NCBI GenBank assembly: GCA_903834145.1
Contig: CAILHY010000008.1
Location: 1-64,000 of the forward strand
Reading direction: 5' to 3'
Source of the DNA: an uncultured Actinomycetes bacterium
GTDB lineage: Bacteria > Actinomycetota > Actinomycetes > Nanopelagicales > Nanopelagicaceae
Length of the DNA stretch: 64,000 nucleotides
Position 1 is the stretch's first letter. Every line of letters starts with the position of its first letter. This document shows, in pieces, positions 30,985 to 36,193 of the stretch. Position numbers and translations under genes: made by a program. The notes under the pieces are model-generated. The model made no database searches, was not told the DNA's origin, and saw nothing but the letters and a program-made list of their open reading frames with translations.

Positions 30985-31024
30985 TCGGACCTCATCGGAC
31001 CTCATCGGACTTCATGGGACCTTC
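30985..31024. repeat. 10-bp tandem repeats after ilvD
   Basis: Unit TCGGACCTCA occurs at 30985-30994 and 30995-31004, then degenerates (TCGGACTTCA, 31005-31014; TGGGACCTTC, 31015-31024). It lies 10 bases after the ilvD stop, ahead of the ilvB leader region. Function unknown. Confidence 0.8.
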
Positions 31025-31075
31025 TAGCAGCGTGTTGGAGTTGAAGTCCAGAGTGTGAGATCACAATCTCAGGGG

Positions 31076-31105
31076 TTGACGGTTTTGCGCCTGTAGTTGG
31101 AGAAT
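31076..31105 (+). promoter_or_regulatory. Candidate promoter of the ilvBNC leader
   Basis: TTGACG (31076-31081), an 18-base spacer, then GAGAAT (31100-31105), followed by six bases to the leader-peptide ATG. This is the same -10-to-ATG spacing as the leaderless genes. An alternative is that GGAG in this stretch serves as a ribosome site and transcription starts further upstream, near a TGAGAT/ATCTCA stem at 31056-31071. Confidence 0.4.
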
Positions 31106-31111
31106 AAGCCC

Positions 31112-31150
31112 ATGATTTCAGTAGTAGTGATTGAAAAGCGCGCGATCTAG
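31112..31150 (+). CDS. ilvB leader peptide (attenuation)
   Basis: A 12-codon reading frame, MISVVVIEKRAI, ends in TAG. Six of twelve codons are Ile or Val, including a GTA-GTA-GTG-ATT run, which is what a ribosome-sensing attenuator of the ilv operon needs. Its last codons form the 5' arm of a 10-bp hairpin, and a terminator follows. A Val-rich leader peptide with terminator is established upstream of ilvBNC in Corynebacterium. Too short for ordinary gene finders; inferred from position and composition. Confidence 0.8.
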   Translation: MISVVVIEKRAI

Positions 31151-31168
31151 CACCATTTGATCGCGCGC
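31138..31168 (+). promoter_or_regulatory. ilv leader hairpin overlapping the leader-peptide stop
   Basis: GCGCGCGATC (31138-31147) pairs perfectly with GATCGCGCGC (31159-31168) around an 11-nt loop that holds the TAG stop. A ribosome stalled at the Val run would sit immediately before or within the 5' arm, so this stem can sense translation. Confidence 0.75.
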
Positions 31169-31170
31169 TA

Positions 31171-31196
31171 CCCTCAGTTATTCACTGAGGGTTTTT
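31171..31196 (+). terminator. Attenuator terminator before ilvB
   Basis: CCCTCAGT (31171-31178) and ACTGAGGG (31184-31191) form an 8-bp stem with loop TATTC, followed by TTTTT (31192-31196). It ends 52 bases before the ilvB start and is the expected regulated stop of transcription. Confidence 0.88.
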
Positions 31197-31248
31197 GCAT
31201 TACTAGGGCAAATTTGTTTTTTCGACGAGAGCGAAAGGAGTTGAAAAT

Positions 31249-32987
31249 ATGGGAACAGAGATGACTGGGGCGAGCAGCCTTGTGAAGTCCTTAGAAGCCG
31301 CTGGCGTAGATGTCATGTTTGGAATTCCTGGTGGCGCCGTCTTGCCTGTCTATGATCCACTTTTTGATTCCAAAATTCGCCATATCTTGGTTCGACATGA
31401 ACAAGGCGCCGGACATGCGGCAACAGGTTACGCCCAAGTCACGGGTCGCGTTGGTGTGTGCATGGCTACCTCTGGTCCGGGCGCCACAAACCTTGTAACT
31501 CCATTAGCTGATGCTCAAATGGATTCCGTTCCTCTGGTTGCCATCACGGGACAAGTTCCATCGGCAGCGATTGGAACTGATGCCTTTCAAGAGGCAGATA
31601 TTCGTGGCATCACTATGCCGATCACCAAACATAATTATTTAGTCACCAATCCTGACGATATCCCACGCGCAATTGCTGAGGCATTCCATATTGCAAGCAC
31701 GGGGCGTCCAGGACCTGTACTTGTTGATATTGCAAAAGATGCCCTGCAGAAAATGACGAATTTTTCATATCCAACCAGCATCCAATTTGCCGGATACAAA
31801 CCACAAGTGGAACCAGATGCTCAGGCAATTCGTGATGCAGTTGCATTGATTGCTCAAGCGAAGAAACCTGTTTTCTATGTTGGTGGTGGAATCATCAAGG
31901 CAAATGCATCACGTCAATTGATGCAGATCGCCGAACTTTTGGGCGCACCGGTTGTCACAACTCTCATGGCACGGGGTGCATTCCCCGATAGTCACAATTT
32001 GCATTTAGGAATGCCAGGAATGCACGGAACTGTTGCAGCTGTTACTGCATTGCAAAAGAGCGATCTTCTTATCACGCTAGGCGCTCGCTTTGATGATCGA
32101 GTTACTGGAAAACTTTCATCCTTTGCTGTAAATGCCAAAGTTATTCATGCCGATATTGATCCTGCTGAAATTGGTAAGAATCGATTTGCTGATGTTCCAA
32201 TCATCGGGGACCTCGCTCACACATTGAACGTACTTATTCCTGCTCTACAGGCGGAATTTAAAAAGAATAAACCAGATCTCACAGTGTGGTGGCGCCAAAT
32301 GTCATCACTTCGTGCAACGTATCCATTGGGCTATGACAAACCGGCCGATGGATCGGTTTCTCCGCAATATGTTATTGAAAGATTGGGCGCCATCTCTGGG
32401 CCTGATTCCATTTATGTGGCCGGCGTTGGCCAACATCAAATGTGGGCCTCGCAATTTGTGAAATATGAAAAGCCACGCACGTGGTTGAACTCCGGTGGTC
32501 TTGGAACTATGGGATATGCGGTTCCTGCTGCGATGGGCGCCAAAGTTGGAATGCCCGATACAACAGTCTGGGCAATTGATGGAGACGGTTGTTTCCAAAT
32601 GACCAACCAAGAATTAGTCACTTGCGCGCTCAATAACATCCCCATCAAGGTTGCAATTATTAATAACGAAAGCCTGGGCATGGTTCGTCAATGGCAAACC
32701 ATGTTCTATGAAGGTCGCTATTCCAATACCTCCTTGCACTCAAAACGCATTCCAGATTTTGTGAAACTTGCAGATGCGATGGGGTGTGCTGGACTTCGAT
32801 GTGAGCGCCCTGAAGACGTAGATGCTGTTATCAAGGAAGCGATGTCTATCAACGATCAACCTGTTGTCGTAGATTTCAGAGTTTTCCGTGATGCGATGGT
32901 CTGGCCAATGGTTGCGGCGGGAACATCTAATGATGAAATCATGATTGCTCGGGGGATTGCTCCCGACTGGGATTCACAGGAGTTGTG

Positions 32988-32988
<1 letters not shown>
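31249..32988 (+). CDS. ilvB: Acetolactate synthase, large (catalytic) subunit
   Basis: TPP enzyme condensing pyruvate with pyruvate or 2-oxobutyrate. The N-terminal domain carries the catalytic Glu in [15 protein letters not shown]. The TPP-binding motif runs from GDG at 445-447 to NN at 472-473. Its 579 aa is standard. The ATG has AAAGGAG upstream. Expression is under the leader-peptide attenuator. The stop overlaps ilvN by one base (TGATG). Confidence 0.97.

Positions 32989-36193
<3,205 letters not shown>

Follow-up and report, generated by a model that had tools for sequence, protein, structure and literature searches.

Results

Organization of the ilvB leader region

The window (the whole stretch of 64,000 nt analysed here, from a genome of 1.75 Mb) carries a leader region with ilvD upstream and ilvB, ilvN, ilvC, serA and leuB downstream. 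By gene assignment, ilvB (acetolactate synthase large subunit; 31249–32988), ilvN (acetolactate synthase small subunit; 32985–33545) and ilvC (ketol-acid reductoisomerase; 33442–34608) lie on the forward strand, as do all stranded features described below; the ilvC frame is drawn from its first start codon and the true start is probably downstream. A preliminary description of this DNA had proposed a complete ilvBNC attenuator in front of ilvB. All of its elements were found in place, with ilvB, ilvN and ilvC as the next genes, and experiments in relatives have demonstrated elements of this kind (PMC11857589, PMC13236596, PMC10272879).

The candidate promoter, as described earlier, consists of TTGACG (−35; 31076–31081), of which TTGAC is kept in family leaders, and GAGAAT (−10; 31100–31105), separated by an 18-nt spacer; the +1 is predicted to fall on the A of the leader ATG. 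This pair was the sole promoter-like site between 29000 and 32000, a count that by itself is not above chance. The leader ATG (31112) starts 6 nt past the −10 hexamer and opens a reading frame, leaderless by its sequence, for the 12-residue peptide MISVVVIEKRAI (31112–31150, with the TAG stop at 31148–31150). Codons 4–7 are GTA GTA GTG ATT (Val4, Val5, Val6, Ile7; 31121–31132), the four consecutive Val/Ile codons already reported. A Shine-Dalgarno-like AAAGGAG was recognized by eye ahead of ilvB (31234–31240). There is also a GGAG at 31099–31102, in the −10 region and 9 nt before the leader ATG, which could act as a Shine-Dalgarno sequence on ilvD read-through transcripts. Between the ilvD stop and the ilvB promoter (about 30986–31020) lies a short tandem repeat of three to four CGGACCTCAT-like copies, absent from the nearest relative (L003).

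Two hairpins follow the regulatory codons. Stem 1, identified by folding and covariation, pairs 31137–31147 with 31159–31169; its 5′ arm comprises the last nucleotide of the Lys codon and the Arg-Ala-Ile codons, and its 3′ arm is non-coding. The stem had been correctly derived from the 3′ codons of the peptide, but it has 11 bp rather than 10 owing to an additional A31137-U31169 pair. The intrinsic terminator hairpin, ACCCTCAGT-TATTC-ACTGAGGGT (31170–31192), begins directly after stem 1, so that the spacing is 0 nt and the helices touch; it has a 5-nt loop, a stem of 9 bp (31170–31178 with 31184–31192) where 8 had been counted, and a run of five T residues at 31192–31196. The leader RNA (31112–31199) folds at −38.6 kcal/mol as compared with −19.1 ± 2.7 for dinucleotide shuffles (z −7.2; 0 of 200). 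Past the terminator, TTTGC...GCAAA (31193–31216) could form a further small hairpin, and a similar sequence is found in the relatives L003 and L004. The leader sequence TCAGT (31118–31122) was considered as a mimic of a terminator arm and rejected, as it is not conserved.

A perfect palindrome, TGAGAT-N4-ATCTCA (31056–31071, no strand assigned), lies 4 nt upstream of the −35 hexamer and is a candidate operator. Exactly one copy is present in 18 of the 21 genus genomes, always at ilvB, and a reversed control pattern gave none. At least 11 of its 12 positions were matched in 54 of 64 family leaders, and the gap to the −35 was 4–5 nt in 63 of 64. NdgR/LtbR was considered as the regulator of the palindrome and rejected because the published motif, which is GTCCACCCACCGGAC-like (PMC4340878; PMC8222616), does not resemble TGAGATN4ATCTCA.

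Recurrence and conservation in the family

Genome-wide scans were made by pattern and covariance-model searches; the searched set contained 21 genomes of the genus and 296 of the family (probably Nanopelagicaceae), many of them MAGs. The attenuator arrangement recurs in 19 genus members and in 64 distinct parsed family leaders, which are related by descent, so that these and the following counts are not independent. Subsets of 61, 62 and 63 family leaders were used for spacing geometry, terminator capture and unconstrained folding, respectively, and 110 leaders from the family and other actinobacterial orders were folded in total.

The suggestion that even the leader peptide may be leaderless agrees with the spacing of the predicted signals, as every family leader with a parsed promoter has 6 nt between the −10 and the start codon (7 in one genus). 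Family leader peptides vary from 8 to 30 residues, and nearly all carry V-V-(V)-I a few nucleotides before stem 1. Control by Val/Ile had been expected, and no other part of the peptide is as constant as this run; the accompanying observation of no Leu codon holds for the window leader but not for the family, as Leu is present in 25 of 61 leaders. The distance from the end of V..I to stem 1 is 2–7 nt (61 leaders). Standard deviations were 1.2 nt for the spacing of the last BCAA codon to stem 1 and 1.35 nt for that of stem 1 to the terminator, whereas those of leader length and of the place of the stop codon were 14.6 and 6.2 nt. Because the family parser restricted the position of stem 1, spacing was rechecked with unconstrained folding, which placed the terminator 0 or 1 nt from stem 1 in 63/63 leaders. 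As parsed, the stems share no nucleotide (spacing 0 or +1) in 38/61 leaders and share 1–5 nt in the remaining 23/61.

Relative to the start of stem 1, the leader stop codon ranges from 4 nt upstream to 13 nt downstream. Several relatives have the stop ahead of the stem (e.g. MFSTAIVVVI*) yet retain the sequence of the 5′ arm, which indicates that conservation acts on this arm as RNA rather than as peptide. Covariation, named in the preliminary description as a check on both stems, was detected for one of them. Stem 1 positions were paired in 92.5% of cases against 76.2% in shuffled controls, with 73 double-change cells against 15 (0 of 2000); in a narrower set of 34 sequences, the covariation score was 0 of 500 and the count of pairs with a change on both sides, a weak measure there, was 91 of 500. 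No covariation was found for the terminator in the family, where it is kept by near-invariance: the arms CCCTCAG/CTGAGGG are almost constant, and CCCTC is frequent in the class, though stem 1 varies. A search for a third pairing partner of these near-invariant arms found none. One relative (L177 of genome G058; see also L072) lacks the promoter, the leader and the 5′ arm of stem 1, and its ilvD continues into the terminator and ends within the 3′ arm; sister genomes are intact, and this locus may have escaped attenuation naturally or may reflect faulty assembly of a MAG.

Occurrence in other actinobacterial orders

A covariance model, R1, was built from 34 sequences of the window's family only and scores the window at 91 bits. 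R1 matched 47 of 58 loci from other actinobacterial orders at full length, on the right strand and upstream of ilvB, with E-values from 6.5e-7 to 0.36, the weakest being significant only in combination with position; since the sample was drawn by a family-built model it favours family-like elements, and 11/58 loci gave no match. The R1 search revealed no second copy in the window's genome, where a minus-strand match is the same stem read backwards, and no Rfam 15 covariance model matched the region or any of 15 loci searched.

Unconstrained folds of the other-order leaders placed the terminator 0–2 nt from stem 1 in 47/47, with stem 1 spanning 26–68 nt. The last BCAA doublet mostly ends 3–5 nt before stem 1 (36/47). 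A −10-like hexamer lies 6–8 nt before the start in all 47, a count that favours the leaderless claim as the parser preferred leaderless starts. Gene context, a short ORF with a BCAA run over a stem, a U-tract terminator, leaderless spacing of the start codon and homology of the structured region are the sequence-based grounds on which the element is classed as an actinobacterial leaderless BCAA leader-peptide attenuator.

Search for an antiterminator

The preliminary description had seen no obvious antiterminator and had doubted a classical alternating structure. Equilibrium folding with the 5′ end masked in alternative ribosome states, as had been proposed, gave a terminator probability of about 1 in nearly every state and leader and yielded no antiterminator. 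Equilibrium folding could miss a kinetic competitor, and capture of the terminator 5′ arm was therefore measured in truncated transcripts, before the 3′ arm exists. The E. coli controls trpL, thrL and leuL showed capture of 0.67–1.0 with the ribosome on the regulatory codons and about 0.01–0.03 with the ribosome at the stop. Across 62 family leaders, capture in the stall states was low (medians 0.05–0.25), and free native leaders captured less than their shuffled counterparts (0.369 vs 0.441; 40/40 shuffles higher). None of the 47 other-order leaders had a terminator capture above 0.5. The doubt about alternating folds is thus supported for family and class, and an antiterminator of the usual kind is unlikely for most class members. 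Local extensions of stem 1, GGG-CCC in L063 and L064 and UUGAG-CUCAG in L066, L068 and L108, may be local antiterminators in these groups. MFE spacings between stem and terminator in E. coli (trpL 2 nt, leuL 4 nt, thrL 15 nt) offer no clean contrast and are hence no evidence.

Discussion

Proposed mechanism

The element in front of ilvB is very probably an attenuator. As a whole explanation, we favour, with some reservation, a leaderless-peptide attenuator that senses charging of Val and Ile tRNAs and controls ilvBNC through a stem 1 that abuts the terminator. The transcript would start at or beside the A of the leader ATG, and the ribosome would initiate without a Shine-Dalgarno sequence. When Val and Ile are plentiful, a ribosome at the stop codon would cover the 5′ arm of stem 1 and open at least the base of the stem, whereupon the 9-bp terminator would fold and transcription would end near 31196. 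When either is scarce, the ribosome would stall within the V-V-V-I codons, its front edge reaching the foot of stem 1, and stem 1 would remain folded directly against the terminator with no second fold capturing the terminator strands. That starvation leads to read-through is presumed from relatives (PMC13236596, PMC11857589).

The spacing geometry is consistent with this scheme. With ribosome edges at +12 to +15 (E. coli values), a ribosome having the first terminal Val in its A site would end 2–13 nt before stem 1 in 61/61 family leaders, and one at the stop codon would open 5–22 nt of the stem, again in 61/61. The state with stem 1 intact should therefore be the starved state, because the Val stall leaves stem 1 free and the stop-codon ribosome opens its base. 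A ribosome stalled on Ile7 would already open 2–5 nt of stem 1, which speaks against the scheme. Stem 1 is no pairing competitor of the terminator, which leaves contact as its only way of acting, if it acts at all; and as both hairpins fold together in naked RNA wherever stem 1 is uncovered, antitermination by abutment would rest on sterics. We regard this mode, whose physical form we infer, as plausible but somewhat short of probable.

Contact could operate in two ways. The linkerless 11-bp duplex might block closing of the terminator base at the RNA exit channel, which does not need a ribosome. Alternatively, stem 1 might loop out about 33 nt and so bring the stalled ribosome to within 8–22 nt of the terminator, too close for folding. 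With stem 1 folded, the A site lies 11–22 nt from the terminator at the first Val, 8–13 nt at the last Val and 21–35 nt at the stop. Terminator folding has been reported to require 10–15 nt or more, with termination below 10% at 5 nt and about 90% at 28 nt (Li et al. PMC4824070), and our distances are compatible with ribosome-proximity control of the pyrBI type. Looping out is slightly favoured over blocking, as it fits the two-sided constraint on BCAA codons and the low expression of a C. glutamicum start-codon mutant. Expression in that mutant was lowered by 80% (PMC11857589), a drop in keeping with ribosome proximity and not with the stem alone, unless the mutation also hurts the promoter. 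In the same species, changes of Val to Ala codons abolish the response (PMC11857589), and in M. tuberculosis a change of LVVI to AAAA abolishes induction and a terminated transcript of roughly 120 nt is seen (PMC13236596). Counting against the mechanism, codon substitutions in the S. coelicolor ilvB leader were reportedly without effect, as cited in PMC1262725.

Extended to the class, the proposal would be that ilvB attenuators of actinobacteria switch with two hairpins and no antiterminator, an abutting (0–2 nt), ribosome-sensitive stem disabling the terminator sterically; we offer this tentatively.

Alternative explanations

A classical alternating attenuator would, on stalling, pair AGUGAUUGA (31126–31134) with UCAGUUAUU (31174–31182), joining the Val-Ile-Glu codons to the upper terminator 5′ arm and loop; these 9 bp, three of them G-U, would extend stem 1 on its outer side. 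The free window leader adopts this pairing in folds that lack the terminator 3′ arm, and a weak form (0.44 sequestered) shows up if Val4 occupies the A site and the ribosome edge is set to +12. Setting the edge to +15, or placing Val5 in the A site, removes it, and it does not occur when the ribosome is stalled on the leaders of the His-Glu and two-Val genus members. The stalled ribosome also covers the 5′ partner, and the low sequestration of the terminator arm in family stall states, below shuffles in free RNA, differs from the high values of the E. coli controls. Such alternation is very unlikely here. The trpL leader of E. coli has a 1:2 pause hairpin, and stem 1 is placed like it and is a strong GC-rich stem encoded by the last peptide codons. 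It might then do no more than synchronise ribosome and RNAP, with read-through arising otherwise, for example from RNAP pausing, NusG/NusA or polarity; a pause hairpin, however, has no need to abut the terminator at 0–2 nt class-wide while its own loop varies widely, and we consider this quite unlikely.

Another proposal is the base-overlap or 'fast' attenuator of C. glutamicum, in which stem 1 antiterminates through last pairs that share nucleotides with the terminator foot. In C. glutamicum a GCC trinucleotide belongs to both stems and the mutants agree with the model (PMC11857589), and the 23/61 family leaders with 1–5 shared nucleotides include the GGG/CCC extension of L063 and L064. The window element and 38/61 family leaders share none, the terminator probability is about 1 with stem 1 folded, and it is abutment rather than overlap that is conserved, all of which makes this explanation unlikely for the present element. 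The leader might, finally, be a terminator with a BCAA-rich ORF lacking codon-specific control, itself constitutive, with control exerted by a regulator that binds the palindrome. The conserved single copy of the palindrome at the promoter and the negative S. coelicolor report, as cited in PMC1262725, are in keeping with this, but V-V-I holds a fixed place before stem 1 across the family, BCAA codons recur across the class, and regulation is lost on codon mutation in both C. glutamicum and M. tuberculosis (PMC11857589, PMC13236596). We judge a constitutive leader to be highly improbable.

Comparison with known systems

Actinobacterial attenuators of this ilvB kind have been known since 2005 (PMC1262725), and experiments on them have been carried out in C. 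glutamicum and M. tuberculosis; our analysis extends the kind to a further lineage and contributes a covariance model, a class-wide spacing rule and a negative result for the antiterminator. The early comparative study of Seliverstov et al. 2005 (PMC1262725) described leader peptides ahead of ilvB, together with terminators, for Streptomyces, Mycobacterium and Corynebacterium, named no antiterminator and called the mode unclear, but did not cover the lineage of the window, the leaderless spacing or the abutment rule. The C. glutamicum ilvBNC attenuator, or ilvB-II motif (PMC11857589, PMC10272879), which we compared directly through the published C. ulcerans construct only, has the same gene, a Val-run peptide and a last-codon stem directly before the terminator, and its +1 is one nucleotide from the leader ATG, as is likewise predicted for the window. 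Its stems share 3 nt and a third hairpin, H1, has been proposed as an anti-antiterminator, whereas the window stems share none and no competitor of stem 1 was seen in the window. M. tuberculosis ilvB1NC (PMC13236596), compared by its published description, likewise has BCAA codons (LVVI), a leader ORF, a terminated short RNA and a stop-codon ribosome that masks an antiterminating stem, but the mutually exclusive antiterminator proposed there was not found here. The trp, thr and leu attenuators of E. coli resemble the window element in their leader peptide with regulatory codons, pause-like stem and terminator, and differ in having a 2:3 antiterminator, which was detected by the same test that finds none here.

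In E. coli pyrBI, the signal is UTP and RNAP pausing. There, a nearby ribosome prevents terminator folding with no antiterminator needed (PMC4824070), as would be the case here; in the window the signal would instead be codon stalling together with a distance-shortening stem, and the two would at most work alike, pyrBI being no homologue.

Valine-producing strains make use of the actinobacterial ilvB attenuator, and a link has been drawn between it and the drug vulnerability of M. tuberculosis resistant to rifampicin. The mode of the switch was already called unclear in 2005, and our comparison narrows the question to the spacer between stem 1 and the terminator. The covariance model fills a gap in Rfam, and freshwater actinobacteria with small genomes are seen to retain such a switch. 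If true, a two-hairpin switch in which an upstream stall acts as if it were closer would add a third mode to the two of alternating folds and simple ribosome proximity.
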